A stretch of 37,443 nt of DNA from assembly GCA_024709955.1 (NCBI GenBank), contig JANJVS010000002.1, forward strand, positions 1 through 37,443. Reading direction: 5' to 3'. The DNA is from Rhodocyclaceae bacterium (GTDB lineage: Bacteria; Pseudomonadota; Gammaproteobacteria; Burkholderiales; Rhodocyclaceae). Made by a program: the position numbers and the translations under genes. Positions 2,963 to 37,132 of this stretch are shown in pieces (the first letter of the stretch is position 1; every line of letters starts with the position of its first letter). The notes beneath the pieces are model-generated. The model worked only from the letters and a program-made list of their open reading frames with translations. It made no database searches and was not told where the DNA came from.

Positions 2963-2985
2963 ACCGTCCCGCCGGCGTCGGCTTT
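2963..2985 (+). repeat. Dispersed 23-bp repeat, copy 1 (intergenic)
   Basis: Starts ACCGTCCCGCC. It differs from the best-matching copies at only two positions, C to T and A to G in the right half, which reads GTCGGCTTT. It lies 20 bases downstream of the glgP stop, in the same direction as glgP, and is preceded by C like all the other copies. Confidence 0.75.
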
Positions 2986-2995
2986 CCATGCGCTT

Positions 2996-3010
2996 CCGAA
3001 GCGGCTTCGG
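2996..3010 (+). terminator. Small hairpin downstream of glgP
   Basis: CCGAAG and CTTCGG form a perfect 6-bp stem around a CGG loop, 54 bases after the glgP stop. No T tract follows, so it is not a convincing intrinsic terminator. It may simply stabilise the mRNA 3' end. Confidence 0.25.
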
Positions 3011-3071
3011 GTGCGCCCGGCAAGGGAAGGAGAAACCTACCTGCCGGGTAGCCTTATCGATGCTTGTGCTG

Positions 3072-3098
3072 TAATACGGTTAGTCCGTCGATTATAAT
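3072..3098 (+). promoter_or_regulatory. Candidate vapBC promoter with overlapping imperfect inverted repeat
   Basis: A consensus TATAAT at 3093-3098 lies 29 bases before the antitoxin ATG. A poor -35 (TGTAAT, 3070-3075) is 17 bases upstream. An imperfect inverted repeat overlaps it: TAATACGG (3072-3079) against CCGT (3085-3088) plus ATTA (3091-3094). VapB-type antitoxins repress their own operons by binding such repeats, so this is a reasonable operator candidate. Autoregulation is inferred. Confidence 0.4.
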
Positions 3099-3127
3099 TG
3101 CCGCAACTTCCCCGGAGGATTCGTCCC

Positions 3128-3334
3128 ATGCAAGCCGTCACCGTTTCCCCGAAATTCCAGGTGGTGATTCCGCAGGCCGTGCGCGAGGCGCTGCATATCG
3201 AGGCCGGGCAGAAGCTTCAGGTGCTGGTGCTCGACAACCGCATCGAGTTGCTGCCGATGGAGCCGGCGCAGGCCTTGCGCGGTTTCCTGGCCGGCATCGA
3301 CACGGGCGTCGAGCGCGAGGACGACCGGGCGTGA
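3128..3334 (+). CDS. vapB: AbrB/VapB-type antitoxin
   Basis: A 68-residue protein with an N-terminal SpoVT/AbrB swapped-hairpin DNA-binding domain, seen in the stretch VSPKFQVVIPQAVREAL at residues 6-22. The C-terminal tail is acidic (GVEREDDRA) and would be expected to wrap the toxin. The ATG at 3128 follows GGAGG at 3114-3118 with good spacing, so it is preferred over the in-frame ATG at 3098. The stop overlaps the toxin start as GTGA. Such antitoxins neutralise a PIN-domain RNase and repress the operon. Confidence 0.85.
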   Translation: MQAVTVSPKFQVVIPQAVREALHIEAGQKLQVLVLDNRIELLPMEPAQALRGFLAGIDTGVEREDDRA

Positions 3335-3705
3335 ATCTGGTCGATTCCTGCGGTTGGCTGGAGTATTTCGCCGATGGTCCGAACGCGGACTTCTTCGCGC
3401 CAGCCATCGAGGACACCGAGCGCCTGATTGTCCCCAGCCTGTGCGTGTTCGAGGTGTTCAAGCGCGTGATGCAGCAACGCGGCGAGGGCGACGCCCTGCG
3501 CGCCGCCGCGCTGATGCGCCAGGGGCAGCGCGTGGACTTGACCGACACCCAGGCGATCGGCGCGGCGCGGCTTTCCGTCGAACTGCGGCTGCCGCTTGCG
3601 GACAGCATCATCTTCCACGCTGCCCGGCAACAAAGCGCCACCCTGTGGACCCAGGACGCCCATTTCGAGGGGCTTCCGGGGGTCAATTACGTGCGCAAGG
3701 GCTGA
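3331..3705 (+). CDS. vapC: PIN-domain ribonuclease toxin (VapC type)
   Basis: A 124-residue protein starting at GTG 3331, overlapping the antitoxin stop. It has the spaced acidic residues of a PIN-domain metal-dependent RNase: D5 in NLVDSCGWLEYF, E41 in the CVFEVFKRV segment, D91 in LPLADSIIF and D109 in LWTQDAHF. VapC toxins cut tRNA or rRNA when freed from their antitoxin. The target of this one cannot be read from sequence. The pair sits alone between glgP and the minus-strand ugd gene, with a 27-base convergent gap to the latter, as expected of a mobile addiction module. Confidence 0.87.
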   Translation: MNLVDSCGWLEYFADGPNADFFAPAIEDTERLIVPSLCVFEVFKRVMQQRGEGDALRAAALMRQGQRVDLTDTQAIGAARLSVELRLPLADSIIFHAARQQSATLWTQDAHFEGLPGVNYVRKG

Positions 3706-3732
3706 AGCGCGGTTCGTTTCGTAGGTCGGGCG

Positions 3733-5064: not shown

Positions 5065-5218
5065 GCGGGGTCCTCTCCTGGGGAGCGAAATGGCGGGGCG
5101 CATTCTCCCATGCCGGGCGCGGCCGGGAGCGGGCTTGCGCCGCCGTGCGCGGATTATCGCCGCCTTTCATGAAGGAATCGTATCGGCGCGCCGGCGGCCC
5201 GGAGTCCCCCGCCTCTGG

Positions 5219-5224
5219 GATAAT
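5219..5224 (+). promoter_or_regulatory. Candidate -10 box for galE
   Basis: GATAAT followed by GCCGCC lies 29 bases before the galE ATG, in the divergent ugd-galE gap (5065-5253). No good -35 is seen at the right distance, so this is a weak call. Confidence 0.3.
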
Positions 5225-5253
5225 GCCGCCTTCGTCCCATCTCGCGCTTCTCC

Positions 5254-6252
5254 ATGATCCTCATCACCGGCGGCACCGGCTACATCGGTTCCCATGCTTG
5301 CGTCGCGCTCGCCCAGGCCGGGCGCCGGGTCCTGCTGCTCGACAACCTGAGCAACAGCGCGGCCGACGTGGTGGACCGGCTGGAACGCATCTGCGGCGCG
5401 CGGCCGGCCTTCGTCGCCGCCGACGTGCGCGACGCCGCCGCCCTTGACGAGGCGTTCGACCGCCATCCGATCCGGGCGGTGCTCCATTTCGCCGGCCTCA
5501 AGGCGGTGGGCGAATCGAACCAGAAGCCGATCGAGTATTACGACAACAACGTCGGCGGCAGCCTGCAGCTGCTGGCGGCGATGCGCCGCGCCGGGGTGAA
5601 GACCCTGGTGTTCTCCTCATCGGCGACGGTCTATGGCGACGCGGCGTCGATGCCGGTGCGCGAGGACTTTCCGCGCTCCGCCACCAATCCCTACGGCCGC
5701 AGCAAGCTGATGATCGAGGACATCCTCGCCGACCTGCATGCCGCCGAGCCGGACTGGCGCATCGCGCGCCTGCGCTATTTCAATCCGGTCGGCGCCCACG
5801 AATCCGGCCTGATCGGCGAGACGCCCCGGGGCACGCCGAACAACCTGATGCCCTATGTCGCCCAGGTCGCCGCCGGCCTGCGGCCGAGCCTCAACGTCTG
5901 GGGCGGCGACTGGCCGACGCCCGACGGCACCGGCGTGCGCGACTACATCCACGTCATGGACCTGGCCGAGGGCCACGTCGCGGCGCTGGCCTATCTGGAG
6001 CGGGCGGGCGGCATGGCGACCGTGAACCTCGGCACCGGCCGCGGCCATTCGGTGCTGGAGATGGTGCGCGCCTTCGAGCGCGCGAGCGGCCGGCCGGTTC
6101 CCTATAATGTGGCCCCACGCCGCCAGGGGGACATCGCCCAGTGCTGGGCCGACCCGCGGCTCGCCGAGGAACTGCTCGGCTGGCGCGCCCGCCGCGGCCT
6201 GGAGCAGATGTGCGCCGACGCCTGGCGCTGGCAGCAGGGTCTCGCCCGCTAG
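5254..6252 (+). CDS. galE: UDP-glucose 4-epimerase
   Basis: Interconverts UDP-glucose and UDP-galactose, probably to supply galactose for the LPS core. The 332-residue protein is of normal GalE length. It starts MILITGGTGYIGSH (NAD-binding motif) and has the FSSSATVYG segment. The short-chain dehydrogenase pair is Y147 and K151 in NPYGRSK, and the LRYFNPVGAHESGLIGE region is also typical. It opens the plus-strand core LPS run. A copy of the dispersed repeat begins 4 bases after its stop codon. Confidence 0.97.
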   Translation: MILITGGTGYIGSHACVALAQAGRRVLLLDNLSNSAADVVDRLERICGARPAFVAADVRDAAALDEAFDRHPIRAVLHFAGLKAVGESNQKPIEYYDNNVGGSLQLLAAMRRAGVKTLVFSSSATVYGDAASMPVREDFPRSATNPYGRSKLMIEDILADLHAAEPDWRIARLRYFNPVGAHESGLIGETPRGTPNNLMPYVAQVAAGLRPSLNVWGGDWPTPDGTGVRDYIHVMDLAEGHVAALAYLERAGGMATVNLGTGRGHSVLEMVRAFERASGRPVPYNVAPRRQGDIAQCWADPRLAEELLGWRARRGLEQMCADAWRWQQGLAR

Positions 6253-6256
6253 CCGC

Positions 6257-6280
6257 ACCGTGCCGCCGGCGCCGACTTTT
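6257..6280 (+). repeat. Dispersed 23-bp repeat, copy 2 (intergenic)
   Basis: Starts ACCGTGCCGCC and ends GCCGACTTTT, one mismatch from the commonest form (G for C at position 6). It fills much of the 61-base gap between galE and the next glycosyltransferase and is preceded by C. Confidence 0.85.
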
Positions 6281-6313
6281 CGATCTTTTGACCGCGACCA
6301 ACTCCGGCTCGAC

Positions 6314-7099
6314 ATGGGAACACCGGCATTCAGCGTCGTCTTGGTGAATTACAAGACGCCCGAAATCACCCGCATCTGCCTCGAACTGCTGCGCGAGCCC
6401 GCGCAAAGGCTCGGCTTCCCGGTCTGGGTGGTGGACAACGACTCCGCCGACGCGAGCACCGAGTACCTGCGCTCCCTCGACTGGATCCGGCTCATCGAGC
6501 GCAAGCCCGGCGCGGGCGAGCCGGGCTTCATGAACCACGGCCTGGCCCTCGACCTGGTGCTCGAACGCGCCGACACCGACTACCTGTTCCTGCTGCACAC
6601 CGACACCTTCATCCACGATCCGGTCATCTTCGAGCAGATGCTCGCCTTCTGCGCGCGGGACGCCAAGGTGGTCGGCGTCGGCTGCCTCGACCAGATCTAC
6701 CGCGGCCAGTTCCGCATCTACTGGCGCATCGTCACGCGCTTCCTCAAGCATTACGCGCGCCGCCTCAAGCTCGCCCTCGGCCTCAAGTCGCGCCCGCCCA
6801 AGCCCTGGATGGAGCAGTACGTCAAGAGCTTCTGCTCGCTGTGGAACATCCGCTTCATCAGGCAGCAGGGCTGGACCTTCGCCATGGACGGCATGACCCC
6901 GAGCTACGCGATCCAGGACCGCGCGCGCGCCGCCGGCTACAAGATCGCCCTGATCCCGGCTCGGAAAATGTTCCGCCATCTCGACCACATCGAGGCGGGC
7001 ACGGTCGCCGCCATCGGCGGCTACGGCGACCAGCACCGGCGCACGCGGAAATACCTGGCGCTGCTGGACAAGTACCGGGAAACGCCGGACGGCGCGTGA
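6314..7099 (+). CDS. Glycosyltransferase family 2 (GT-A fold)
   Basis: A 261-residue inverting-type sugar transferase. The N-terminal strand FSVVLVNYKTP is followed by VVDNDS at 39-44 (nucleotide-binding loop) and YLFLLHTDTF, where the metal-binding DxD motif is expected. The ATG at 6314 is the first start that gives a clean GT2 N-terminus. The frame is open further upstream only through galE and the repeat. Its stop overlaps the next gene's ATG (TGATG). It lies between galE and core kinase genes, so a role in LPS core extension is likely. The sugar and acceptor are unknown. Confidence 0.85.
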   Translation: MGTPAFSVVLVNYKTPEITRICLELLREPAQRLGFPVWVVDNDSADASTEYLRSLDWIRLIERKPGAGEPGFMNHGLALDLVLERADTDYLFLLHTDTFIHDPVIFEQMLAFCARDAKVVGVGCLDQIYRGQFRIYWRIVTRFLKHYARRLKLALGLKSRPPKPWMEQYVKSFCSLWNIRFIRQQGWTFAMDGMTPSYAIQDRARAAGYKIALIPARKMFRHLDHIEAGTVAAIGGYGDQHRRTRKYLALLDKYRETPDGA

Positions 7100-7875
7100 T
7101 GACGGACTTCGCCAACGACACCTGGCGCGCCGTGCTGGCCCGCAACGGGCTGGACGGCTTCGACGCGCTGTGGAACCTGGAAGCGCCCTGGTTCGAGCCG
7201 CCCAACCGGCGGCGCGGCGGCTGGAGCGGCGTGGCGCGTTGCGAGCTCGAAGATGCCGCCGGCCAGCGGCGCGGCGTCTTCCTCAAGCGCCAGGAAAACC
7301 ACAAGACCTTTTCCTGGCGGCATCCGTTCAAGGGCATTCCCACCTTCCTGCGCGAGTTCCGGCTGATCCGGCGCTACCGCGCCGGCGGCGTGCCGACCCT
7401 CGATCCGGTGTATTTCGCCATGCGCCCGACGGCGGCCGGCCATCGCGCGATCCTCATGACCGTCGCCCTCGACGGCTTCGTGCCGCTCGACGCCTACGTC
7501 GCCGGCGGGCAGGCCAGCCGCCCCGCGCCGGCCGAGCGCCGCCGCGTGCTGGCCGCCGTCGCCGACCTGACGCGGCGCATGCACGCCTGCCGCATCCAGC
7601 ACAACTGCTACTACCCCAAGCACGTCTTCGTGCGCGTCGGGCCGGACGGCGCCGTCGAGGCGCGCGTCATCGACCTGGAAAAGTCGCGCTGGCGGCCGCT
7701 CGCCGTTTTCTGCGCGCTGCGCGACCTCGACACCCTCAACCGCCACGCCCCCGGCTGGAGCCGCGCCGAGCGGCTCTACTTCCTCAAGGCCTACCTGCGC
7801 CGCGACCGGCTGACGCCCTACGGCAAGTGGCTGTGGCACAAGCTCGCCGCGCGCGCGGCGAAGCGGCGCGCCTGA
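7099..7875 (+). CDS. InaA-type LPS kinase-family protein lacking the HRD aspartate
   Basis: A 258-residue protein of the Kdo/WaaP/InaA kinase superfamily. It has the SWRHPFKGIPTFLREFRLIRRYR segment, TRRMHACRIQHNCYYPKHVFVRV around residues 160-182, and an IDLEKSR metal-site segment with D192. WaaP has H-R-D at the catalytic loop. The aligned residues here are H168, N169 and C170, so the usual catalytic aspartate is missing. From memory, the H-N-C-x-Y-P-K-H pattern is typical of the InaA branch, so this is a family trait rather than damage. It overlaps the glycosyltransferase before it and precedes waaG by 13 bases. Pseudomonas core clusters carry a similar gene. Its activity, or a pseudokinase role, is unproven. 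Confidence 0.82.
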   Translation: MTDFANDTWRAVLARNGLDGFDALWNLEAPWFEPPNRRRGGWSGVARCELEDAAGQRRGVFLKRQENHKTFSWRHPFKGIPTFLREFRLIRRYRAGGVPTLDPVYFAMRPTAAGHRAILMTVALDGFVPLDAYVAGGQASRPAPAERRRVLAAVADLTRRMHACRIQHNCYYPKHVFVRVGPDGAVEARVIDLEKSRWRPLAVFCALRDLDTLNRHAPGWSRAERLYFLKAYLRRDRLTPYGKWLWHKLAARAAKRRA

Positions 7876-7888
7876 GGCCGGGACCGCC

Positions 7889-9013: not shown

Positions 9014-9834
9014 GCGCAACCGTCTATCTCGAAGAGCCACTGCGCTCCCTCTGGGCCGGCCAGGACCCTTTCGCCGCCGCCGAGGCGCTGGAGGGCGAGG
9101 TGCTGCGCGCCCTCGAAGGGCGGCGCACGCTGCGCACCGAGATTGCCGGACGCGGCTACTACCTCAAGATCCATCGCGGTGTCGGCTGGGGAGAGATTCT
9201 CAAGAACCTGCTCTCCGGCCGCCTGCCGGTGCTCGGCGCCGGCAACGAGTGGCGCGCGCTGCGCCGGCTGACGGCCCTCGGCGTGGATACGATGCGCCCC
9301 GTCGCCTTCGGCGCGCGCGGGGCCAACCCGGCGCGGCAGCATTCCTTCATCCTCACCGAGGAACTCGCGCCGACGATCAGCCTGGAAGACTATTGCCGTA
9401 ATTGGCACGATGGGCGCACCGTCCCGCCGGCGCCGACTTTCAAGCGCGCGCTGATCCGCCGCGTCGCCGAGATGGCGCGGCGCATGCATCGCGGCGGCGT
9501 CAATCACCGCGACTTCTACCTCTGCCACTTCCTGCTGCATCTGCCGGCGGACGCGCGGGCGCCGAAGCTCTCGCTGATCGACCTGCACCGCGCCCAGGTG
9601 CGCGCCAGGACGCCGCGCCGCTGGCGCGACAAGGACCTGGCGGCGCTGTATTTCTCCGCCCTCGACATTGGCCTGACGCGGCGCGACCGGCTGCGCTTCC
9701 TGCGCGCCTACTTCGGCCGCCCGCTGCGGGAAATCCTGGCCGCCGAGGCGGCGCTGCTCGCCCATCTCGAAAGCGAGGCGGCGCGCCTCATGGCACGCTA
9801 CCGCCGCAAATACGCGCCGGGGGCCGGCCAATGA
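9010..9834 (+). CDS. waaP: LPS core heptose(I) kinase (WaaP)
   Basis: Phosphorylates O-4 of heptose I in the inner core, which stabilises the outer membrane. The 274-residue product has the catalytic loop VNHRDFYLCHFLL with D168 and the metal-binding LIDLHRAQ with D191. It is slightly longer than the 265-268 residues I recall for E. coli and Pseudomonas WaaP. The start is GTG at 9010, overlapping the waaG stop. Residues 137-144 (TVPPAPTF) are encoded exactly by a copy of the dispersed repeat. They lie about 24 residues before the catalytic loop, in a segment that is normally variable. The frame is intact, so the gene should be functional. Confidence 0.94.
   Translation: MSATVYLEEPLRSLWAGQDPFAAAEALEGEVLRALEGRRTLRTEIAGRGYYLKIHRGVGWGEILKNLLSGRLPVLGAGNEWRALRRLTALGVDTMRPVAFGARGANPARQHSFILTEELAPTISLEDYCRNWHDGRTVPPAPTFKRALIRRVAEMARRMHRGGVNHRDFYLCHFLLHLPADARAPKLSLIDLHRAQVRARTPRRWRDKDLAALYFSALDIGLTRRDRLRFLRAYFGRPLREILAAEAALLAHLESEAARLMARYRRKYAPGAGQ
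9418..9440 (+). repeat. Dispersed 23-bp repeat, copy 3 (inside waaP)
   Basis: A full-match copy starting ACCGTCCCGCC and ending GCCGACTTT, preceded by C. It is read in frame in the sense direction as TVPPAPTF (waaP residues 137-144). Confidence 0.9.
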
Positions 9835-10580
9835 GCGCGGCCGAGCGCTGGCGCGTCATGCCCGGCACCGAGGCGGAGGCGGCGCAACGCTTCGCCGACC
9901 TCGATGCCGTGTTCGCCCTCGACGGCCAGGTGGTCGCCCAGGATTCGCTCACCCGCACGCTGCGCGTCGAGATCGGCGGCCGCGCCTACTACGTGAAGCG
10001 CTACGCCGGCCTCGGCAAGAAGCCCCTGCGCCGCCTGTTCGCCACGCCGCGCGTCGAAACGGAATGGCGCAACCTCGAACGCTTCGCCGCCTGGGGCATT
10101 CCCACCGCGCGCCTCGTCGCCCACGGCCTCGAACGCAAGGGCGGCCGCTTCCTGCGCGGCGCGCTGGTCACCGCCGAGATTCCCGACACGACCGACCTGG
10201 GCCGGCTCGCCAACGCGGCCGACCCGCGCCTGAAAAGTCGGTGCTGGTGGGACGGTGTCGCGCGCCAGATCGCGGCCATCGCCCGCGCCATGCACGAGCG
10301 CCGCTTCGTCCATGGCGACTTCAAGTGGCGCAACCTGCTGGTGGACGGCGCCGGCCGCGTCTTCCTGATCGACTGCCCGAGCGGCGGCTTCTGGTGGCCG
10401 CCCTTCCTCGAATACCGCGTCGTCAAGGATCTCGCCTGCCTCGACAAGGTGGCGAAATATCACCTGCCGCGCACCCGCCGGCTGCGCTTCTACCTCGACT
10501 ACGCGCGGAAGAAGAAGCTCGACGCCGCCGACAAGCGGCGCATCCGCCGCATCGTCGCCTTCTTCGCGGGGCGCGAATGA
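9831..10580 (+). CDS. LPS core kinase, WaaP/RfaY-like
   Basis: A 249-residue kinase of the LPS kinase superfamily. The N lobe contains YYVKRYAGLGKKPLRRLFATPRVETEWRNLE in sequence. The catalytic loop is RFVHGDFKWRNLL with D163, and the metal site is FLIDCPSGG with D181. The ATG at 9831 overlaps the waaP stop. Its place after waaP and its length match the second core kinase of Pseudomonas clusters, as I recall them. The substrate is probably a heptose or another inner-core sugar. Residues 135-142 (KSRCWWDG) come from an inverted copy of the dispersed repeat, giving an odd Cys-Trp-Trp run just before the helix leading to the catalytic loop. Confidence 0.85.
   Translation: MSAAERWRVMPGTEAEAAQRFADLDAVFALDGQVVAQDSLTRTLRVEIGGRAYYVKRYAGLGKKPLRRLFATPRVETEWRNLERFAAWGIPTARLVAHGLERKGGRFLRGALVTAEIPDTTDLGRLANAADPRLKSRCWWDGVARQIAAIARAMHERRFVHGDFKWRNLLVDGAGRVFLIDCPSGGFWWPPFLEYRVVKDLACLDKVAKYHLPRTRRLRFYLDYARKKKLDAADKRRIRRIVAFFAGRE
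10233..10256 (-). repeat. Dispersed 23-bp repeat, copy 4 (inside kinase gene, inverted)
   Basis: On the minus strand it reads ACCGTCCCACC then AGCACCGACTTTT. Three G-to-A differences from copy 3 all lie in the middle block. It is in frame in the host gene, read antisense to the element, giving KSRCWWDG. It is followed by CAGG, like copies 6 and 7. Confidence 0.85.
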
Positions 10581-11962: not shown

Positions 11963-11980
11963 ATTCACCGGGGGATACTT

Positions 11981-12964: not shown

Positions 12965-12981
12965 AGCGCGCCCCAGTCCGG

Positions 12982-14787: not shown

Positions 14788-14845
14788 TGCGGGGCGTTGC
14801 GGCCAAGGCCTTGAGCGGGCTGGGATACTAGCATGCGGGGCAGGC

Positions 14846-14851
14846 TAGAAT
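14846..14851 (+). promoter_or_regulatory. Candidate -10 box for the kinase-like gene at 14879
   Basis: TAGAAT followed by GCCCCGCC lies 27 bases before the TTG start, in the msbA divergent gap. It resembles the boxes before glgP, galE and waaC. No clear -35 is visible. Confidence 0.3.
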
Positions 14852-14878
14852 GCCCCGCCGAAACTTGGAAGCCACCTC

Positions 14879-22846: not shown

Positions 22847-22855
22847 CCGCCCGCC

Positions 22856-23824
22856 ATGCGCATCCTGCTCGTCAAAACCTCCTCGCTGGGCGACGTGATC
22901 CACAACCTGCCGGTCGCCAGCGACATCCGGCGGCGCCTGCCGGAGGCGCGCATCGGCTGGGTGGTGGAAGAGAACTTCGCCGAAATCCCGCGCCTGCATC
23001 CCGCCGTGGAACAGGTCTTCCCCGTCGCCGTGCGGCGCTGGCGCAAGCGCCTGCTTTCCGCCGCCACCTGGCGCGAGATCGGCGCGTATCGCCGCGCGGT
23101 GCACCGTCCCGCCGGCGCCGACTTCTGGGACGCCGTGCTCGACACCCAGGGCCTCGTCAAAAGCGCCCTGCTCGCGGCCCAGGCGCGCGGCCCGAAGCTC
23201 GGCCACGCGGCCTCTTCCGCGCGCGAGCCCCTCGCCGCGCGTTTTTACGAGCGCGGCTGCGACATCCCGAAAGCCCTGCACGCGGTCGAGCGCAACCGCC
23301 GCCTCGCCGCCGCCGCCCTCGGCTACGCGCTCGACGACCTGCCGCTCGACTACGGCATCGCCGCGCCGCCGCTGCAGGCCGACTGGCTGCCGAAGGGAGA
23401 CTACGCCGTGCTGCTCACCGCCACCAGCCGCGCCGATAAGGAATGGCCCGAGGCGGACTGGCGCGCCCTCGGCGCCGCCCTCAACGCCACCGGCCTGCGC
23501 TGCGTGCTGCCCGGCGGCAGCCCGGCCGAGCGCGCGCGCGCCGCGCGGCTGGCGCAGGACCTCGGCCGCGCCGTCGCCGCGCCGCCGCTGAACCTGACCG
23601 AGCTGGCCGGACTGATGGCCGGCGCGCGCATCGTCGTCGGCGTGGACACCGGCCTCGTGCATCTGGCCGCCGCGCTGGCGCGCCCGACCCTCGCCCTCTA
23701 CCGCGGCTCCGACCCCGCGCTCACCGGCGTGCTCGGCGGCGGCGCCTACCTCAACCTCGGCGGCCTCGGCGCGCCGCCCGGCGCGGCGGAAGTCGTGGCC
23801 GCCGCCCTGCGTCTCGCCGACTGA
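22856..23824 (+). CDS. waaC: LPS heptosyltransferase I (WaaC)
   Basis: Adds the first L-glycero-D-manno-heptose to Kdo in the cytoplasm (GT9). The 322-residue protein starts MRILLVKTSSLGDVIHNLPV and has AVLDTQGLVKSALLA, the lysine segment TATSRADKEWPEADW, and the donor motif GVDTGLVHLAAAL. The ATG at 22856 lies just after the promoter. An in-frame ATG at 22784 would fall inside the divergent carbamoyltransferase start. Residues 83-90 (HRPAGADF), immediately before the conserved WDAVLDTQG strand, are encoded by a copy of the dispersed repeat. I recall relatives as shorter here. The stop overlaps the waaA start (ATGA). Confidence 0.95.
   Translation: MRILLVKTSSLGDVIHNLPVASDIRRRLPEARIGWVVEENFAEIPRLHPAVEQVFPVAVRRWRKRLLSAATWREIGAYRRAVHRPAGADFWDAVLDTQGLVKSALLAAQARGPKLGHAASSAREPLAARFYERGCDIPKALHAVERNRRLAAAALGYALDDLPLDYGIAAPPLQADWLPKGDYAVLLTATSRADKEWPEADWRALGAALNATGLRCVLPGGSPAERARAARLAQDLGRAVAAPPLNLTELAGLMAGARIVVGVDTGLVHLAAALARPTLALYRGSDPALTGVLGGGAYLNLGGLGAPPGAAEVVAAALRLAD
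23103..23124 (+). repeat. Dispersed 23-bp repeat, copy 5 (inside waaC)
   Basis: Starts ACCGTCCCGCC and ends GCCGACTT, then C. It matches copy 3 except for the last base. It is sense to waaC but in a different frame from copy 3, encoding HRPAGADF (residues 83-90) with its flanking C. Confidence 0.88.
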
Positions 23825-25104
23825 TGGCGCGCCTGCTCTACACCCTCGCCGTCCACGCCCTGCTGCCCTGGGCCATGCTGCACCTCTTGTGGCGCGCGCG
23901 GCGCCAGCCGGAATACCTGCGCCACTGGGGCGAGCGCTTCGGCGTTTACCCGCGCACCCGGCCGGCCGGCCCGATCATCTGGATTCACGCGGTCTCCGTC
24001 GGCGAGACCCGCGCCGCCCAGCCCCTCGTCGCCGCGCTGCGCGCGCGCTATCCGGACCACCGCATCCTGTTCACCCACATGACGCCCACCGGACGCGCGA
24101 CTTCGGAGGCGCTGTTCGGCGCCGCGGTCGAGCGCGTCTACCTGCCCTACGACATGCCCTGGGCGATGCGCCGCTTCCTGCGGCATTACCGGCCCGCCCT
24201 CGGCCTGGTCATGGAGACCGAGCTCTGGCCCAACCTGATCGCCGCCTGCCGGGACGCGGCGGTGCCGCTGCTGCTGGTCAACGCGCGGCTGTCGGAAAAA
24301 TCGGCGCGGCGCTACGCCCGCTTCCCGGCGCTGACGCGCGGCGCGCTGCAGGGTCTCGGAGCGATCGCCGCCGGCGGCGCGGCGGACGCGCGGCGCCTGC
24401 GCGAACTCGGCGCCGCCGAGGTCGCGGTGCTCGGCAACATGAAGTTCGACATCGCGCCGCCGGCGGCGCAGCTGGAACTTGGCCTGCGCCTGCGCGAGCG
24501 CTGCGGCGGCCGCCCCGTTTTCCTCTGCGCCAGCAGCCGCGAGGGCGAGGAGGCGCTGATCCTCGATGCGTGGAAGGCCACCCAAAATCTCGGTTCTGGC
24601 GACACGGTGGCCGCGCCGCTGCTCGCCATCGTGCCGCGCCATCCGCAGCGCTTCGACGAGGTGGCGCGCCTGATCGAGGCGCGCGGCTTCGCGCTGCAGC
24701 GCCGCTCCGACGAACGGCCGGTTGCCGCCGCCACCCAGGTCTGGCTCGGCGACAGCATGGGCGAGATGTTCGCCTACTACGCGGCGGCGGACGTCGCCTT
24801 TGTCGGCGGCAGCCTGCTGCCCTTCGGCAGCCAGAATCTCATCGAGGCCTGCGCCGTCGGCACGCCGGTGCTGCTCGGTCCCTCGACCTACAACTTCGCC
24901 GAGGCCGCGCAAGCGGCGCTGGCCGCCGGCGCCGCGCGCCAGGTGGCCGACGCGGAGGAACTCGTCGCGGCCGCGCTGGCGCTGCTCGCCGACCAGCCCG
25001 CGCGCGCCGCGATGGGCGCCGCCGGCCGCGCCTTCAGCGCCGGGCATCGCGGCGCCACCCAGCGCACGCTGGCGCTGCTGGAAAACTTCGTCGCCCCCGC
25101 CTGA
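23824..25104 (+). CDS. waaA: 3-deoxy-D-manno-octulosonic acid (Kdo) transferase
   Basis: Inner-membrane-associated GT30 enzyme that adds Kdo from CMP-Kdo to lipid IVA. The 426-residue product has an N-terminal hydrophobic anchor, the acceptor segment WIHAVSVGETRAA with the general base E61, LVMETELWPNLI, and C-terminal VGGSLLPFGSQNLIEACAVGTPV with the donor-site residues. It overlaps waaC by ATGA. Residues 254-262 (QNLGSGDTV), in the loop before LLAIVPRHPQRF, correspond to a divergent copy of the dispersed repeat. They look like an insertion in a variable loop. Confidence 0.96.
   Translation: MARLLYTLAVHALLPWAMLHLLWRARRQPEYLRHWGERFGVYPRTRPAGPIIWIHAVSVGETRAAQPLVAALRARYPDHRILFTHMTPTGRATSEALFGAAVERVYLPYDMPWAMRRFLRHYRPALGLVMETELWPNLIAACRDAAVPLLLVNARLSEKSARRYARFPALTRGALQGLGAIAAGGAADARRLRELGAAEVAVLGNMKFDIAPPAAQLELGLRLRERCGGRPVFLCASSREGEEALILDAWKATQNLGSGDTVAAPLLAIVPRHPQRFDEVARLIEARGFALQRRSDERPVAAATQVWLGDSMGEMFAYYAAADVAFVGGSLLPFGSQNLIEACAVGTPVLLGPSTYNFAEAAQAALAAGAARQVADAEELVAAALALLADQPARAAMGAAGRAFSAGHRGATQRTLALLENFVAPA
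24584..24608 (-). repeat. Possible divergent copy of the dispersed repeat (inside waaA)
   Basis: On the minus strand it begins CACCGTGTCGCCAG and ends CCGAGATTTT. Compared with the clear copies it has one extra base and several substitutions. It keeps the CACCG left end, the CGCCAG middle and the T-rich right end. It may be a second sub-family or a decayed copy. Confidence 0.45.
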
Positions 25105-25226
25105 CCGGCGCGGGCGATCGGCGGGAACTTTTTCCGCAGCGGGGCGTCGGCTAAAGGAAGGGGAGAGTCATGCCGACGGTTCGCGGGTGGCTTTCATGCC
25201 ATTACCGCTACTGGAGGAGTCGATCC

Positions 25227-25670: not shown

Positions 25671-25680
25671 CGGACGCGGT

Positions 25681-27009: not shown

Positions 27010-27034
27010 GCTGGACTCCGGAGGGGTGGTTTTT

Positions 27035-28029: not shown

Positions 28030-28071
28030 GGGATCGCTCGCGGAAGGATGGGTTGGCGGAATGCCTTCATT

Positions 28072-31176: not shown

Positions 31177-32216
31177 CGGCCCGCGTCCGCCGCGATGCGC
31201 ACCTGTTCGCCGTCGGCGAGCGTGAAGGCGCCGGCGGCGACGATGGTCTCGCCCGCCGCCAGGCCGTCCTTGAGCAGCGCGCCGGCGTCGGTGTAGCGCT
31301 CGATCGCGACGGCGCGCCGGCTCAGCGTGCCGTCGGCGCCGACGATCCAGACGGCGGCCCGCTCGCCCTGCTGGATCAGCGCGGCGAGCGGCACGACGAT
31401 GCGTTCGTCGCCGGCCGCCGCGAAGTCCACCGTCGCCGTCATGCCGAGGGCCACGCCTGCATCGGCGTCGAGGATGGCGACGCGCGCGGCGAAGGTGCGC
31501 GTCGCCGGGTCGGCGGCTGGCGCCAGCTCGCGCAGTCGGCCCCGGTAGGTCCTGCCGGCGCCGTCGGCCCAGAGCGTCACCGTCCCGCCAGCGCCGACTT
31601 TCAGGGCGGCAACGCGGGATTCGGGAATCGCGATCGCCACCTCGCGCTCGCCGTCGCGGGCGACGCGCAACACGCCCTGGCCGGCGGCGACCACCTGGCC
31701 CGGCTCGGCCAGCACGGCGGCGACCACGCCGGCGGCATCCGCCGTCAGCGTGGTGTAGGCGGCCTGGTTCTGGGCCAGTTTGGCCTGGGCCTCGGCGGCG
31801 CGGCTGGCGGTGTCCTTGGCGTCGAGGGCGGCCTGGCTGACGAAGTTGCGTTCCCGGAGTTCCTGCGTGCGCCTGAGCTCCGCGGCGGCGAGGGCGCGGT
31901 TGGCCTCGGCCTGCGCCGCCGTCAGGCGCGCGTCGGCGGGGTCGAGGCGCGCCAGCGCCTGGCCGGGCACGACGCGCGCGCCGGCATCGACCAGGCGCTC
32001 GACGAGCTTGCCGCCGACGCGGAAGCCCAGCGTCGTCTCGTGACGCGCGCGCACCTCGCCGCTGTAGCGCTGCCGGTTCACCGTCGCGCCGGCGCCGACT
32101 TTCAGGGCCTTGACCAGCTTGGGCCCGGCGGGCAGGACGGCGGCGGGCGGGACCTGATCCCCGCCGCAGGCGACCGGCAGCAGGGCGAGGGGAAGAAGGA
32201 AAATGACGGTTCTCAC
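31173..32216 (-). CDS. RND efflux periplasmic adaptor lipoprotein 1
   Basis: A 347-residue membrane-fusion protein joining the RND pump to TolC. The GTG start at 32216 overlaps the stop of pump 2 (GTGA). A lipoprotein signal is present, MRTVIFLLPLALLPVAC, with lipobox cysteine C17. The barrel and lipoyl regions include RARHETTLGFRVGGKLVERL and VVAAGQGVLRVARDG, with a helical hairpin between (about 88-140). Two copies of the dispersed repeat lie in this one gene, encoding KVGAGATV (39-46) and KVGAGGTV (206-213). The second replaces residues of the conserved strand before TLWADGAGRTYRG without an obvious length change. Confidence 0.92.
   Translation of the reverse strand: MRTVIFLLPLALLPVACGGDQVPPAAVLPAGPKLVKALKVGAGATVNRQRYSGEVRARHETTLGFRVGGKLVERLVDAGARVVPGQALARLDPADARLTAAQAEANRALAAAELRRTQELRERNFVSQAALDAKDTASRAAEAQAKLAQNQAAYTTLTADAAGVVAAVLAEPGQVVAAGQGVLRVARDGEREVAIAIPESRVAALKVGAGGTVTLWADGAGRTYRGRLRELAPAADPATRTFAARVAILDADAGVALGMTATVDFAAAGDERIVVPLAALIQQGERAAVWIVGADGTLSRRAVAIERYTDAGALLKDGLAAGETIVAAGAFTLADGEQVRIAADAGR
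31579..31601 (+). repeat. Dispersed 23-bp repeat, copy 6 (inside adaptor 1)
   Basis: Starts ACCGTCCCGCC and ends GCCGACTTT, with one mismatch (A for G) from copy 3, followed by CAGGGC. It is antisense to its host gene and encodes KVGAGGTV there (residues 206-213). Confidence 0.88.
32080..32102 (+). repeat. Dispersed 23-bp repeat, copy 7 (inside adaptor 1)
   Basis: Starts ACCGTCGCGCC and ends GCCGACTTT, with one mismatch (G for C) from copy 3, followed by CAGGGC like copy 6. It is antisense to its host gene and encodes KVGAGATV (residues 39-46), just after the lipoprotein linker. Confidence 0.88.
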
Positions 32217-35200
32217 GGCGTTTCCTGGCGAGAGTGGGATTGGGGCAGCCAGCCGCGCACGCGCTCGATGAGGTCGTCCACGTAGGTGAACACCACGGGG
32301 ATCACCAGCAGGCTGAGGAAGGTGGAAGTGATCAGGCCGCCGATGACGACGATCGCCATCGGCGCGCGGAAGCTCGGGTCGGTGCCGATCCCCAGCGCGA
32401 TCGGCAGCATGCCGGCACCCATGGCGACGGTGGTCATGACGATCGGGCGCGCGCGCTTGCGGCAGGCGTCGAGCAGCGCGTGCCAGCGGTCGAGGCCGTG
32501 CTCGCGGCGCGCCAGGACCACGTAGTCGATCAGCAGGATCGAGTTCTTGGTGGCGATGCCCATCAGCATGATCAGGCCGATCATCGAGGGCATCGACAGG
32601 GCGGTCTGGCTGACGAACAGCGCGAGGAAGGCGCCCGGCACCGAGAGCACCAGCGCGGCGAGGATGGTCACCGGCTGGACGAAATCCTTGAACAGCAGCA
32701 CCAGCACGACGTAGATGCACAGCACGCCGGTGAGCATCGCCAGGCCGAAGCTCTGGAACAGCTCGCCCATCGACTCGGCGTCGCCGACGGTGGTCTGAAT
32801 GATGCCCGGCGGCAGGTTCTTCAGGCTCGGCAGCGCGAGGGCGCGCTTTTCCACCTCGCCGAGAGGCTCGCCGTTCAGTTCGATCTCGAAGTTGATGTTG
32901 CGCAGCCGGTCGTAGCGGTCGATCTCCGCCGGTCCGCCGCCGATGCGCAGGTCGGCGACGGTGCCGATCATCACCGGGCCGTGCTTCCCCGGCACGGTCA
33001 GGCGTTCGAGCAGGTGGATGTCCTGGCGCGCCGCCGCCGGCAGCCGGACGACGATGGGCACCTGGCGCTGGGAAAGGTTGAGCTTGGCGACGCTCTGGTC
33101 GTAGTCGCCGGCGGTGGCGATGCGCAGCACGTCGGCGATGGCCTCGGCGGTGACGCCGAGGTCGGCGGCGCGCGCCGAGTCGGGGCGCACCACGAGTTCC
33201 GGGCGCGTCAGGCTCGCCGTGCTGGTGACCGCGCCGATGCCGGGGATGCCGCGCAGCTCGCGTTCGACCGTGCGCGCGTGCTCGGCGAGCAGCGGGCCGT
33301 TCTCGCTCGCCAGCACCAGCACGTATTTCTCGTTGGCGCCGGCGAGGCCGACCTTGACCTGCGCGCCCGGCAGGTCGGCGAGCGCCGCGCGCAACTCGGC
33401 CTCGATCGCCTGCTTCTTGACGCCGCCGCGTTCCCCGCGCGGCGTCAGGTTGATGGTCAGCGTCGCCTTGCGCACCTCGGCGGCGCCGCGCGGCGCGAAG
33501 GGATCGCTGCCGGTGGCGCCGCCGCCGCTGGCGGTGTAAACGAGCTTGACGTGCGGGTTGCCGGCGACGCGGCGGCGCGCCGCCTCGGCGACGGCGAAGG
33601 TTTCCCCGAAGGTGCTGCCCGGCTGCAGCGTCAGGGAAACCTGGGTCTGCGACAGGTCGTCCGGCGGGATGAAGCCGGTGGGCAAGAGGGGCACGAGGGC
33701 GAAGGAGGCGACGAAGAAGGCGCCCGCCGCCGCCAGGGTGGCGACGCGATGGCGCAGGCACCAGGCCGTCCAGCCGGCGTAGAGATCGAGCCAGCGCGGC
33801 GCGTCGTGGGCCTGGCGCGGCGGCCGCAGCAGATAGGCCGCCATCATCGGTGTCAGCAGGCGCGCGACGACGAGGGAGAAGAACACCGCGATGGCGGCGG
33901 TCCAGCCGAACTGGACGAAGAACTTGCCGGCGATGCCGCTCATGAAGGCGGTGGGCAGGAACACGGCGATCAGCGTGAAGGTGGTGGCGATCACCGCCAG
34001 GCCGATCTCGTCGGCCGCCTCCATGGCCGCCCGGTAGGGCGTCTTGCCCATGCGCAGGTGACGCATGATGTTCTCGATCTCGACGATGGCGTCGTCCACC
34101 AGGATGCCGACGACGAGGGAGAGCGACAGCAGGGTGACGACGTTGAGGCTGAAGCCCATCAGGTACATCGCCGCGAAGGTCGGGATCGCCGAGAGCGGCA
34201 GGGCGGTGGCCGAGACCAGGGTCGCGCGCCAGTCGCGCAGGAACAGCCAGACGACCAGCACCGCGAGCAGCGCGCCCTCGATCAAGAGCGCCATCGAGCC
34301 CTCGAAGTTCTCGATCACCGGATCGACGAAATTGAAGGCCTCGGTGACGACGATGTCGGGATGCTCGGCCTGCAGCTGGCGCAGCCGGGCGCGCACCCCG
34401 TCGGCCACCTCCACCTCGCCGGCGCCCCGGCTGCGCGTGATCTCGAAGCCGACCACCGGCCTGCCGTCGAGCAGCGCGGCGGAGCGCTGTTCGGCCACCG
34501 TGTCGGTCACCGTGCCCAGCGTGTCGAGGCGCACGCGGCGGCCGTCGGACAGGGCGATTTCCATGGCGCCGAGCTCTTCCGCGCTCCGCACCGTGGCGAT
34601 GGTGCGCACCGATTGCTCGACGCCGCCGATGTCGGCGCGGCCGCCCGAGGCCTCCTGCTGGATCAGGCGCAGCTGGCGCGAGACGTCCGCCGCGCTGGCG
34701 CGCAGGGCCAGCAGGCGCGCCGGGTCGAGCTCGACGCGCACCTCGCGCGTGGCGCCGCCGACGCGCGCCACCGCGCCGACGCCGCGCACGCTGAGCATGG
34801 CCTTGGTCACCGTGTTGTCCACGAACCAGGAGAGCGCCTCGTCGTCCATGCGCGCCGAGGCGACGGTGTAGGTGAGGATGGGGGCGCCGGCGACGTTGAT
34901 CTTGGCGACCACCGGGTCCTTGAGGTCGCCGGGCAGGTCGGCGCGGATGCGCGCGACGGCGTCGCGCGTGTCGTCGAGGGCCTCCTGGGTCGGTTTTTCG
35001 AGGCGGAACTCGGCGGTGACGACGGCCGTGCCGTCCTGCACCTTGGTGTAGATGTGCTTGAGGCCCTGCAGGGTGGCCACCGAGTTCTCGATCTTGCGCG
35101 CCACCTCGGTTTCCATCTGCGCCGGCGCGGCGCCGGGCAGGGTGGCGGTGACCGTGACCATGGGCAGGTCGATATCCATGAACTGCTGGACCTTCATGCC

Positions 35201-35290
35201 CTTGAAGGCCATCAGGCCGAACAGGGTGAGCAGGGCGAACAGCAGCACCCCGGGGATCGGGTTGCGGATCGACCAGGCGGAGACGTTCAT
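32213..35290 (-). CDS. RND efflux pump permease (HAE-1 type), pump 2
   Basis: A 1025-residue RND exporter. It starts MNVSAWSIRNPIPGVLLFAL. The porter entry VTVTATLPGAAPAQMETEVARKIE is in sequence, the helix-4 proton-relay pair is D399 and D400 in VVGILVDDAIVEIENI, and the late helix region is MIGLIMLMGIATKNSILLIDYV. It differs clearly from pump 1 in its first loop, so the two are paralogues of different sub-branches rather than a recent duplication. It follows adaptor 2 by 4 bases and overlaps adaptor 1. The order adaptor-pump-adaptor-pump suggests two pairs, or a mixed complex as in MdtABC. Confidence 0.93.
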   Translation of the reverse strand: MNVSAWSIRNPIPGVLLFALLTLFGLMAFKGMKVQQFMDIDLPMVTVTATLPGAAPAQMETEVARKIENSVATLQGLKHIYTKVQDGTAVVTAEFRLEKPTQEALDDTRDAVARIRADLPGDLKDPVVAKINVAGAPILTYTVASARMDDEALSWFVDNTVTKAMLSVRGVGAVARVGGATREVRVELDPARLLALRASAADVSRQLRLIQQEASGGRADIGGVEQSVRTIATVRSAEELGAMEIALSDGRRVRLDTLGTVTDTVAEQRSAALLDGRPVVGFEITRSRGAGEVEVADGVRARLRQLQAEHPDIVVTEAFNFVDPVIENFEGSMALLIEGALLAVLVVWLFLRDWRATLVSATALPLSAIPTFAAMYLMGFSLNVVTLLSLSLVVGILVDDAIVEIENIMRHLRMGKTPYRAAMEAADEIGLAVIATTFTLIAVFLPTAFMSGIAGKFFVQFGWTAAIAVFFSLVVARLLTPMMAAYLLRPPRQAHDAPRWLDLYAGWTAWCLRHRVATLAAAGAFFVASFALVPLLPTGFIPPDDLSQTQVSLTLQPGSTFGETFAVAEAARRRVAGNPHVKLVYTASGGGATGSDPFAPRGAAEVRKATLTINLTPRGERGGVKKQAIEAELRAALADLPGAQVKVGLAGANEKYVLVLASENGPLLAEHARTVERELRGIPGIGAVTSTASLTRPELVVRPDSARAADLGVTAEAIADVLRIATAGDYDQSVAKLNLSQRQVPIVVRLPAAARQDIHLLERLTVPGKHGPVMIGTVADLRIGGGPAEIDRYDRLRNINFEIELNGEPLGEVEKRALALPSLKNLPPGIIQTTVGDAESMGELFQSFGLAMLTGVLCIYVVLVLLFKDFVQPVTILAALVLSVPGAFLALFVSQTALSMPSMIGLIMLMGIATKNSILLIDYVVLARREHGLDRWHALLDACRKRARPIVMTTVAMGAGMLPIALGIGTDPSFRAPMAIVVIGGLITSTFLSLLVIPVVFTYVDDLIERVRGWLPQSHSRQETP

Positions 35291-35294
35291 CGGC

Positions 35295-36362
35295 TCAGGG
35301 CACCACGCGCACGGTGTCGCCGTCGGCGAGCAGGCCGGCGCCGCTCGCCACCACGCGGGCGGCGGGATCGAGGCCGCTCACCTCGACGCGCTCGGCGTCG
35401 CGGCGGCCGGTGGCGACCTTGGTCTGCAGCACCTTGTTGTCCTCGACGCGGAAGACGTAGGCGAAGCCCTCGCGCAGCAGCAGCGCCGATTGCGGCACGG
35501 TCAGGGCCGGGGCGCGGCCGAGCAGGAATTCGCCGCGCGCGAACATGCCGGCGCTCACCGCGCGCCCCGCCTCCGCCGGCAGATCCACATAGACGAGGGC
35601 ATTGCGCGTTTGCGGGTCCACGGTCGGCGCCACGGCGCGCACCCGGCCCGTCACCGTCTCGCCGTTCGGCCCTGTCAGCACGGCTTCCAGGCCGGGCTGG
35701 AGACGGGAAAGCTCGGCGGCGGTCACCTCGGCGCGCCATTCGAGCCGGCCGCCGCGGATCAGGCGAAACAGTTCCTGGCCCGGCTGGGTCGGCGTGCCGA
35801 CCGTGGCCGTGCGCGCCGAGATCACGCCGTCGTCGGGCGCGCGCACGGCGGTCCGCGAGCGCTTGAGCTCCGCCGATTGCAGACGCGCGCGCGCGGCATC
35901 GAGGCGCGCCAGCGCCGTGTCGGCGGCGGTCCGCGTCTGGGTGTTCTGCTGGGCGCTGTAGAAGCCCTTGGCGGTCAGCTGGCGCGCGCGCTCGTGGTTG
36001 GCGCGCGCCTCGGCCAGGGTCGCCTCGGCCTCGGCGACGGCGGCGCGCATCTCGGCCAGCTCGCTGTCCAGCGTGTCCGGGTCGATGCGCGCCAGCACCT
36101 GGTCTTTCTTCACCCGGTCGCCGACGTTTACCAGCACCGCCGTCAGCCGGTAGTTGCTGAGCTCGGCGCCGATCACCGCCTCCTGCCAGGCGGCGATGTT
36201 GCCGGCGGCCTTGAGGGTGTGCGGCCAGTCGAGGGTTTGCGGCGCGACGGCGTTCACGGCGAGGGCCGGCTTGGCGGCCGGGGCGACAGCCTCGGCGGGC
36301 GGTTCCTCGCAGCCGGCCAGCGCGAGCAGGCCGGCCAGCAGCCAGGACGGGTTGCGGATCAT
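35295..36362 (-). CDS. RND efflux periplasmic adaptor lipoprotein 2
   Basis: A 355-residue membrane-fusion protein with a lipoprotein signal, MIRNPSWLLAGLLALAGC (C18). The lipoyl half-motifs are AVLVNVGDRVKKDQVLARIDPD and RSRTAVRAPDDGVISARTATVGT, separated by a coiled-coil hairpin (about 105-165). The C-terminal barrel has VPQSALLLREGFAYVFRVEDNKVLQTKVATG. Its ATG overlaps the TetR stop (ATGA), so regulator and pump are co-transcribed. It is probably the partner of pump 2, which starts 4 bases later. Confidence 0.93.
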   Translation of the reverse strand: MIRNPSWLLAGLLALAGCEEPPAEAVAPAAKPALAVNAVAPQTLDWPHTLKAAGNIAAWQEAVIGAELSNYRLTAVLVNVGDRVKKDQVLARIDPDTLDSELAEMRAAVAEAEATLAEARANHERARQLTAKGFYSAQQNTQTRTAADTALARLDAARARLQSAELKRSRTAVRAPDDGVISARTATVGTPTQPGQELFRLIRGGRLEWRAEVTAAELSRLQPGLEAVLTGPNGETVTGRVRAVAPTVDPQTRNALVYVDLPAEAGRAVSAGMFARGEFLLGRAPALTVPQSALLLREGFAYVFRVEDNKVLQTKVATGRRDAERVEVSGLDPAARVVASGAGLLADGDTVRVVP

Positions 36363-37021
36363 GTCGCGCTCCCGCCCGCGCCGGCGCCGTGCAGCCCGCG
36401 CAGAATGATGTCGAAATAGGCGGCGAAATAGTCCTCGTTGGCGACGCCGGCCTCGGCGCAGCAGTCGAGGGAGTGGTTCCAGATCATGCGCATCAAGAGC
36501 GGCGCCATGACGACGAGGAGCGCCGCCTCGACGTTCGCCGGCGCGAACTCGCCGCGCGCGATGCCGCGCGCGACGACGCCGCGCGCCAGCCCCGTGCCGC
36601 GCTGGATCACCTCGCGGTGGTAGAAGGCGGCGATCTCGGGGAAATTGCGCGCCTCGGCGAACACCAGCTTGGGCAGGCCGCCGATGCGCTGCGATCCCAC
36701 CAGGCGCCAGATGGCGCAGACCACCTCGCGCAGCAGCTCGTCGGTGGGGCCGGCGAAGCCGGCGACGAGCTTTTCGGCCTCGGCGAGCGCCGGCAGCAGG
36801 CCCTCGCGCACCACCGCCTGGAACAGCGCCTCCTTGTTCTCGAAATAGAGGTAGAGCGTGCCCTTCGACACGCCGGCCAGGGCCGCGACATCCTCCAGGC
36901 GCGTGGCCGCGTAGCCGCGCTCGACGAAGAGTTCCAGCGCGGCGGCGGTCAGCTCGGCGGGACGGGCATCCTTGCGGCGGCGGCGCGGCGTGGCCCCGGA
37001 TACGGCGGGTTTTGTTGACAT
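36359..37021 (-). CDS. TetR/AcrR-family transcriptional regulator
   Basis: A 220-residue regulator with a basic N-terminal tail (PRRRRKDARP) and a TetR helix-turn-helix at about 24-70. The recognition part is LEDVAALAGVSKGTLYLYFENKEALFQ. The C-terminal ligand domain includes a TetR_C-like region (RIGGLPKLVFAEARNFPEIAAFYHREV). It is the first gene of the efflux operon and overlaps adaptor 2. Most such regulators repress their own pump operon and release it on ligand binding. A perfect palindrome just upstream (37031-37042) is the likely operator. The ligand is unknown. Confidence 0.92.
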   Translation of the reverse strand: MSTKPAVSGATPRRRRKDARPAELTAAALELFVERGYAATRLEDVAALAGVSKGTLYLYFENKEALFQAVVREGLLPALAEAEKLVAGFAGPTDELLREVVCAIWRLVGSQRIGGLPKLVFAEARNFPEIAAFYHREVIQRGTGLARGVVARGIARGEFAPANVEAALLVVMAPLLMRMIWNHSLDCCAEAGVANEDYFAAYFDIILRGLHGAGAGGSAT

Positions 37022-37030
37022 CTTGACGTG

Positions 37031-37042
37031 GTCATTAATGAC
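37031..37042 (-). promoter_or_regulatory. Candidate TetR operator palindrome
   Basis: GTCATTAATGAC is a perfect 12-base palindrome, 9 bases upstream of the TetR ATG. Further GAC/GTC half-site-like words (TTGACG at 37023-37028 and AAGGTC at 37046-37051) flank it. Its AT-rich composition stands out from the surroundings. Autorepression of the regulator-pump operon is inferred from position and family habit. Confidence 0.5.
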
Positions 37043-37107
37043 TTGAAGGTCAGTAATCTATCCGCGCCTTTTCGCCCTGTCAATGCGGATTTCGGTCCTG
37101 CGGGCCG

Positions 37108-37132
37108 AAAAAGTCGGCGTTGGTGGGACGGT
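37108..37132 (-). repeat. Dispersed 23-bp repeat, copy 8 (intergenic)
   Basis: On the minus strand it begins ACCGTCCCACC, continues AACGCCGAC and ends in a run of five T. Three G-to-A changes from copy 3 lie in the middle block. It is preceded by C on that strand and lies between the TetR operator region and the hairpin repeat. Confidence 0.85.

Follow-up and report, generated by a model that had tools for sequence, protein, structure and literature searches.

A word of about 24 bp is scattered over the genome of a Rhodocyclaceae bacterium (NCBI GenBank assembly GCA_024709955.1), where it was noticed in a window of 37,443 nucleotides, the whole stretch of DNA analysed here (contig JANJVS010000002.1, positions 1 to 37,443). 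The word is probably a DNA uptake sequence, a self-recognition tag for natural transformation, and from sequence comparison we put the probability of this at about 0.8. The dialects of the word, its placement and its counts carry the argument. It also seems reasonably likely that the Rhodocyclaceae possess a third, independently evolved system of self-DNA recognition, which would pair a putative receptor with this long word of two blocks and about 24 bp.

Genome-wide counts and dialects

The genome of the window (G000; 3.51 Mb in 237 contigs, 70% G+C) contains 696 copies of the word at up to three mismatches, 363 forward and 333 reverse. The reversed word has no match in the whole 3.5 Mb at the same threshold. 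The initial annotation had proposed such a genome-wide scan and a comparison with shuffled sequence of the same composition and codon use. The coding DNA of G000 (396 kb) holds 47 copies; 20 codon-order shuffles of it all gave none, and 20 permutations of synonymous codons that preserved each protein gave 6–14. These 6–14 copies are what can be said for an artefact of chance or codon usage in a genome of 70% G+C. That account is refuted by the excess of real copies, by the missing reversed word, and by the presence of the word in genome G187 at 54% G+C together with its absence from the sample of genome G005 at 61%. A weight matrix built from the G000 copies gave 111 matches scoring at least 8, of which 104 scored at least 20, and fifth-order random sequence gave 0–1. 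The matrix conveyed the impression of almost no intermediate copies, which is weakened by the mismatch counts: they drop gradually and reach background at 5–6 mismatches. The leading over-represented 12-mer found de novo in an evenly spaced sample of genome G017 is part of the word.

The anatomy of the word was derived from samples of G000 (434 kb), of the 100% complete, single-contig genome G017 (400 kb) and of genome G026 (385 kb). The samples of G026, G079 and G187 were chosen where copies were known, and no argument is based on their densities. The ends of the element are sharp, its length is about 24–25 bp, and the flanks of 43 and then of 99 copies lack clear conservation beyond it. The general form is C-RCCGT-NYCR-CC-R-GCGCCGACTTT-T, and the dialect of the window is CACCGTCCCGCCRGCGCCGACTTTT. 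The consensus differs slightly among G000 (CACCGT(C/G)CCGCC(A/G)GCGCCGACTTTT), G017 (GTGCCGTCCCGCCAGCGCCGACTTT) and G026 (CGCCGTCCCGCCAGC(G/A)CCGACTTTT). Two blocks, RCCGT and CC-R-GCGCCGA-TTT, flank four bases that are more variable. The left end described by the initial annotation is conserved as C-ACCGT, but the positions that follow are variable (63, 72 and 91 of 99 copies have C). The CAGG reported to follow many copies is not part of the conserved sequence, which extends by a single further base, T in 72 of the 99. Coding and non-coding copies vary at largely the same positions, so the variation seems to be shaped by whatever reads the DNA and not by codon constraint.

The congener G016 was for a time regarded as word-poor (36 copies at up to two mismatches), a classification that was dismissed because this genome has a dialect of its own. 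Its word found de novo, CCGCC(C/T)CGCC(A/G)GCGCCGAGTTT, is altered at positions 4 and 19. The form CCGCCYCRCCRGCGCCGAGTTT has 219 exact copies in G016, whereas 15 of the other 18 genomes of the genus contain none and three contain one copy each. Among 81 sites in 397 kb of G016, 39 align to the DNA of another compared genome. The word occupies the same place in at least one other genome at 19 of these 39 sites, and the best homologue is without the word at 21. At the shared sites, G016 has C at position 4 in every one of the 26 comparisons, and the other genome has T in 25 of them. Position 19 is G in G016 and C in the other genome in 12 of the 26 comparisons, and G in both in seven. Hundreds of scattered sites in G016 appear to have changed together, many of them where other species have words. 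This concerted change over scattered sites is the best indication of a recogniser that acts in trans, reads the word and has drifted in its specificity. Contig 63 of G016 carries two words with the left end of the window dialect (CACCGTCC...; L390:17576 and 19006), 1.4 kb apart, which suggests that the pair was imported from a G000-like relative.

Seventeen of the 18 other congeners hold 36–507 copies at up to two mismatches. The remaining congener, G005 (87% complete), has no copy at this threshold, and no over-represented word stood out in a de novo search of 278 kb of its sequence. Two other genera of the family were word-rich among 61 genomes searched at up to two mismatches. The degenerate form CCGYNNYRCCRRCRCCGANTTT, searched without mismatch in 297 Rhodocyclaceae genomes, reaches 20 or more copies in 37 of them, distributed over six genera (g1, 11 of 12 genomes; g2, 11 of 12; g9, 1 of 1; g62, 1 of 1; g70, 4 of 4; g88, 9 of 9). 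A further 62 genomes hold 1–14 copies and 198 none, and the reversed control gives 0 or 1 copies. Forward and reverse copies are about equal in the word-rich genomes. Among the matches listed, most records with an exact match are assemblies of Rhodocyclaceae, some of them named Sulfuritalea, Sulfurisoma, Propionivibrio or Azonexus, and a few carry other labels (Thiobacillus, Casimicrobiaceae, Gammaproteobacteria bacterium, Proteobacteria bacterium). Nearly all of the named word-bearing records among these matches are metagenome-assembled genomes.

In G123, a genome with just six copies of the degenerate form in 3.66 Mb, five words lie on one strand within 41 kb (contig 1, 1461267–1502266; L303:11267, L304:5624 and L305:722, 10592 and 12245), and the cluster is perhaps an imported tract. 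Closely spaced copies are also present in G097 and G064. The samples of G187 (L296–L302) contain unrelated 12-mers, for example CAGAGCGCAAAT and CCCAATCTGCTA, 38–39 times in 140 kb, which perhaps belong to one repeat array such as clustered regularly interspaced short palindromic repeats (CRISPR).

Placement and turnover of the copies

Genes were called with a simple purpose-written gene finder, which gave a coding share of about 91%, in samples containing 104 copies in G000, 72 in G017 and 84 in G026; the counts of this paragraph follow that order. As the initial annotation had observed in the window, copies lie on both strands, between and inside genes. Those inside genes number 51, 50 and 61 (49–73%), and 53, 22 and 23 are non-coding or at gene edges, a 3–6-fold excess over the approximately 9% expected. 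Sense and antisense orientations are about equally frequent among the in-gene copies (24/27, 23/27 and 26/35). These copies use mainly four of the six frames and leave two nearly unused (P for uniformity 0.001, 2e-7 and 1e-11). The non-coding copies accumulate within 20 nt of gene 3′ ends (32 of 53, 14 of 22 and 12 of 23, with 10–14% expected), and they show no enrichment near gene 5′ ends (three, four and two copies).

Along the chromosome of G017, 18 of 20 evenly spaced 20-kb samples contain 2–5 copies each. The two word-free samples are a prophage, with portal, head and tail genes, and a cluster of ribosomal-protein genes, so that foreign DNA is without copies in the one prophage sample, but the ribosomal-protein cluster is likewise. 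Exact 22-base matches were found in 54 stretches among 2.9 million viral contigs. The initial annotation had recommended a count of strand bias relative to replication. No clear bias was found in G017 (29 leading versus 24 lagging copies, assigned by the rough rule of the skew of each sample), and no positional gradient is visible over the 20 samples.

Some intergenic copies in G000 form direct pairs with a spacing of 96–105 nt (L221:153/251, L229:326/422, L230:13727/13832, L233:1955/2060, L016:899/1001 and L027:1501/1598). Several of these enclose a related segment (CGGCCGCTGCGCTT ... AAAGTCGG), and the paired words apparently belong to a larger repeat with a word at both ends. In G017, words behind genes at L182:3338, L185:7569, L186:5030 and L187:5552 are followed by an inverted half-copy (for example GGCGCCCGGCGGGAC) and a further partial direct copy, and these arrangements may fold as terminators.

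In the window, the pattern ACCGTCCCRCCRRCGCCGACTTT at up to three mismatches has eight matches, compared with 0.01 on average and never more than one in 100 dinucleotide shuffles; the recurrence is therefore not due to chance, as originally stated. The matches are the eight copies of the initial annotation, with ends within one or two bases of those given there. The divergent ninth copy that it reported exceeds the three-mismatch threshold, yet is accepted by the weight matrix made from the copies of the genome. The copies are:

2963..2986, + strand: word copy 1, intergenic, 20 nt past the end of a phosphorylase gene (420–2942, +); 2 mismatches
6257..6280, + strand: word copy 2, 4 nt past the end of an epimerase-family gene (5254–6252, +); 1 mismatch
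9418..9441, + strand: word copy 3, in a Kdo/WaaP-kinase-family gene (9010–9834, +), sense, T-V-P-P-A-P-T-F; 0 mismatches
10233..10256, - strand: word copy 4, in the next called gene (9831–10580, +), antisense; 1 mismatch
23103..23126, + strand: word copy 5, in a family-9 glycosyltransferase gene (22856–23824, +; PF01075), H-R-P-A-G-A-D-F; 1 mismatch
24584..24608, - strand: ninth, decayed copy, in gene 23824–25104 (+), antisense; found by the weight matrix; the aligned copy in G016 is in the G016 dialect
31579..31602, + strand: word copy 6, in an RND-pump adaptor gene (31173–32216, -), antisense, L-K-V-G-A-G-G-T-V; 0 mismatches
32080..32103, + strand: word copy 7, second copy in the adaptor gene 31173–32216 (-), L-K-V-G-A-G-A-T-V; 1 mismatch
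37109..37132, - strand: word copy 8, intergenic, 87 nt upstream of a TetR-family gene (36359–37021, -); 0 mismatches

At the place of the ninth copy the window reads CCGTGTCGCCAGAACCGAGATT, and the aligned site of G016 is a good copy, CCGCCTCGCCAGCGCCGAGTTT. The word of 9418..9441 is also present at the same aligned place in G003 and G016. For the copy at 10233..10256, a homologue of 78% identity is without the word and without a gap. The window further contains lipopolysaccharide-core-type genes (5254–11962 and 22856–23824), including three Kdo/WaaP kinase family proteins and glycosyltransferases. Two RND efflux gene sets are apparently encoded at 28072–36362, to judge from the matches of their adaptors.

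The origin of the copies was approached through orthologous loci that lack them, a comparison suggested by the initial annotation. Of 162 in-gene copies, 58 have a usable homologue in another compared genome and 48 have a homologue without the word. Most of these word-free homologues (27 of 48) are ungapped at the site, 14 have residues missing and seven have extra residues. A gap of 7–9 residues occurs in just one of the 48, and two further sites, with gaps of 4 and 4 and of 12 residues, could conceal an insertion. In the RND-pump adaptor gene, 13 of 16 sequences of the genus, the window's own among them, have a word at up to three mismatches at the codons corresponding to 32080. The word of 31579 is present in four of the 16, again with its own, and a fifth sequence has it with four mismatches. 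Of the 11 sequences of the genus without the copy at 31579, ten show other codons there without any change in length, and one has 12 extra bases. G005 alone among the 16 adaptor sequences has no word at up to four mismatches in the compared stretch. In two congeners (L153 and L159) the site at window 32080–32102 is interrupted in its middle by 12 additional bases, and both instead bear a word at the place of 31579–31601.

Identical amino acids are encoded by the same codon more often at the word sites (528 of 815, 65%) than in the flanks (12838 of 22652, 57%), in a set of pairs that are not independent and that pools homologues with and without the word. Split by presence of the word, the set gives a codon identity of 75% (346 of 460) for pairs in which both genomes carry it and of 51% (182 of 355) for pairs with one word-free member. 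The 75% is partly circular, since possession of the word was judged on the DNA, and the pooled figure is used here.

The word as a putative uptake sequence

Based on the dialects, the placement and the counts, a mechanism of uptake and spread can be proposed. A receptor on the cell surface, most likely a minor type IV pilin, would bind the word in free double-stranded DNA, so that fragments bearing the word enter preferentially. Homologous recombination would then swap a resident allele for one with a better match to the word. Biased import would raise the copy number over time wherever protein coding tolerates the word, which may be the case in variable stretches inside genes and in the few bases behind stop codons. 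When the specificity of the receptor drifts, the whole genomic set would follow and dialects would result. We infer the uptake, the receptor and the drive in this scheme from the pattern of the copies.

Known uptake words are described as having no palindromic form and no orientation bias, as over-represented in non-coding DNA and as arising by point mutation, with many copies inside reading frames (PMC1939737); dialects that follow species are described as well (PMC3630211). The DNA uptake sequences (DUS) of the Neisseriaceae, read by the minor pilin ComP, are likewise a lineage-restricted word with very many copies and species dialects (PMC3630211). The Rhodocyclaceae word resembles DUS further in lying on both strands, in and between genes, in genomes that encode pilins of the ComP_DUS family. 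It differs in its greater length of about 24 bp and in its two blocks around four variable bases. The DUS 10-mer GCCGTCTGAA, the sole DUS dialect counted, has 0–2 copies in samples of 0.28–0.43 Mb from five genomes. All DUS dialects have a CTG core, which the word does not keep invariant: the corresponding position of its complement CAG is A in 58 and G in 41 of 99 copies of G000. Some copies of the word share the letters GCCGTCT with DUS, for which chance and kinship are both possible. The uptake signal sequences (USS) of the Pasteurellaceae, whose hosts belong to a different class of bacteria, share with the word the non-coding excess and the lack of orientation bias, and are described as evolving by point mutation (PMC1939737). 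Their words are different, and AAGTGCGGT and ACAAGCGGT have 0–3 and 1–3 copies, respectively, in the samples of five genomes. According to a 2025 paper, the Neisseriaceae and Pasteurellaceae are the only families known to select DNA by such words (PMC12616744). A literature search, with most subscription papers and all bioRxiv preprints outside its scope, found no paper joining uptake sequences with Rhodocyclaceae, Rhodocyclales or Sulfuritalea, and did not find the letters of the word in any of four forms.

Among the dispersed repeats, the Betaproteobacterial repeat element (BRE; Hot et al. 2011, PMC3110155) resembles the word in being dispersed, with some copies inside genes. By the description in that paper it is unlike the word, with a length of about 90 bp and at most 29 copies per genome, a comparison made without aligning the sequences; its table lists one copy in its one member of the Rhodocyclaceae (PMC3110155). 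Repetitive extragenic palindromic sequences and bacterial interspersed mosaic elements (REP/BIME), as well as miniature mobile repeats, are like the word short, dispersed and present in many copies. REP/BIME and similar repeats are inserted and mainly extragenic. The word is unlike them, as 49–73% of its copies are in genes and most of its testable sites are not whole-word insertions.

Several observations weigh against an uptake sequence. ComEC is encoded in 55 of 61 relatives and pilins of the ComP_DUS family in 53, and both are also present in word-free genomes, namely G005 and many genomes of other genera. ComEC was rejected as a discriminator for that reason, as it occurs in word-bearing and word-free genomes alike. 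The ComP_DUS-family pilins were set aside as the receptor, since they are so widespread and the sequences read by eye showed no feature that follows the word. No receptor that tracks the word is found among these candidates. The word has about twice the length of DUS and USS, which have 9–12 nt (PMC12616744). Its density of about 200 copies per Mb is below the neisserial number of roughly 1,900 or more per genome (PMC3630211). The lack of copies in prophage DNA was observed in a single prophage sample, and the dialect change of G016 is only partial at position 19. Gaps are present at 21 of the 48 sites with a word-free homologue (44%), mostly of 1–4 residues, compared with 38 of 960 control windows (4%), and the sites therefore sit in length-variable stretches. 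In the nucleotide alignments of G016, 14 of the 21 best word-free homologues are gapped at the site. The birth of words thus appears not to be purely by substitution, and small insertions or deletions may take part in some births. A same-place counterpart in the compared genomes is lacking for about half of the alignable copies (30 of 58, and 20 of 39 for G016).

The initial annotation had offered three natures for the element: a miniature mobile repeat that can land within genes, an uptake-like word and a chromosome-organisation site. The uptake-like word agrees with the density, the strands and frames, the mostly non-insertional sites, the dialects and the word-free prophage sample. A mobile repeat similar to REP sequences, miniature inverted-repeat transposable elements (MITEs) or the Rickettsia palindromic element could insert in frame, 24 bp being eight codons. 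It would fit the constant length and sharp ends, the frequency of small indels, with 21 of the 48 sites at gaps, and the intergenic G000 copies paired 82–105 nt apart, several of them within a larger repeat. We regard such a repeat as quite improbable, because word-free homologues are ungapped at 27 sites and have a gap near the length of the word at one, with two more ambiguous, and orthologous places in the adaptor gene hold non-word codons of the same length. Shared sites also differ at position 4 in nearly all cross-species comparisons (25 of 26), which is hard to square with independent insertions. Neither terminal inverted repeats nor a palindrome was seen in the consensus by eye, with no dedicated test or fold run.

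A binding site for an intracellular protein of chromosome organisation or replication, comparable to matS, FtsK-orienting polar sequences (KOPS), Chi or nucleoid-occlusion sites, would be kept by selection and would track the specificity of its protein. A drifting specificity of that protein would explain the concerted dialect difference too, and genome-wide occurrence, the greater sameness of codons at the sites than in the flanks and the absence of copies from the prophage sample are all compatible with it. The near-equal leading and lagging counts, the lack of a visible gradient in the 20 samples of one chromosome, the occurrence of both orientations inside genes and the turnover of sites nevertheless make this unlikely. 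No site of this kind is known to have more than 20 specified bases and hundreds of copies, which also counts against it. An element acting in transcription or at the RNA level, such as a terminator or a regulatory RNA motif, is highly improbable. In-gene copies are antisense as often as sense, the window has no Rfam match, and strict words form no inverted pair within 80 nt in five samples. Inverted pairs at up to 300 nt number just three, none and one among the 104, 72 and 84 copies of G000, G017 and G026, and the two words of the G026 pair are 213 nt apart. What speaks for such an element is the clustering of non-coding copies behind stop codons, the inverted half-copies after some G017 copies and the three inverted word pairs of the G000 sample, which are 26–107 nt apart (L217:550/585, L218:16426/16533 and L222:2077/2103).

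Implications for the Rhodocyclaceae

If the word is an uptake sequence, the Rhodocyclaceae would be a third case of DNA self-tagging, in genomes of 54–70% G+C, which would suggest that such tagging evolves repeatedly. At least one species would have changed dialect throughout its genome; the change would set up a genetic barrier towards its congeners and serve as a natural experiment for mapping the receptor. G016 would open the passage from one dialect to another to direct comparison and offer a handle on the receptor. A further use of the word could be to trace DNA that passed between species, as some otherwise word-free genomes hold a few clustered copies.

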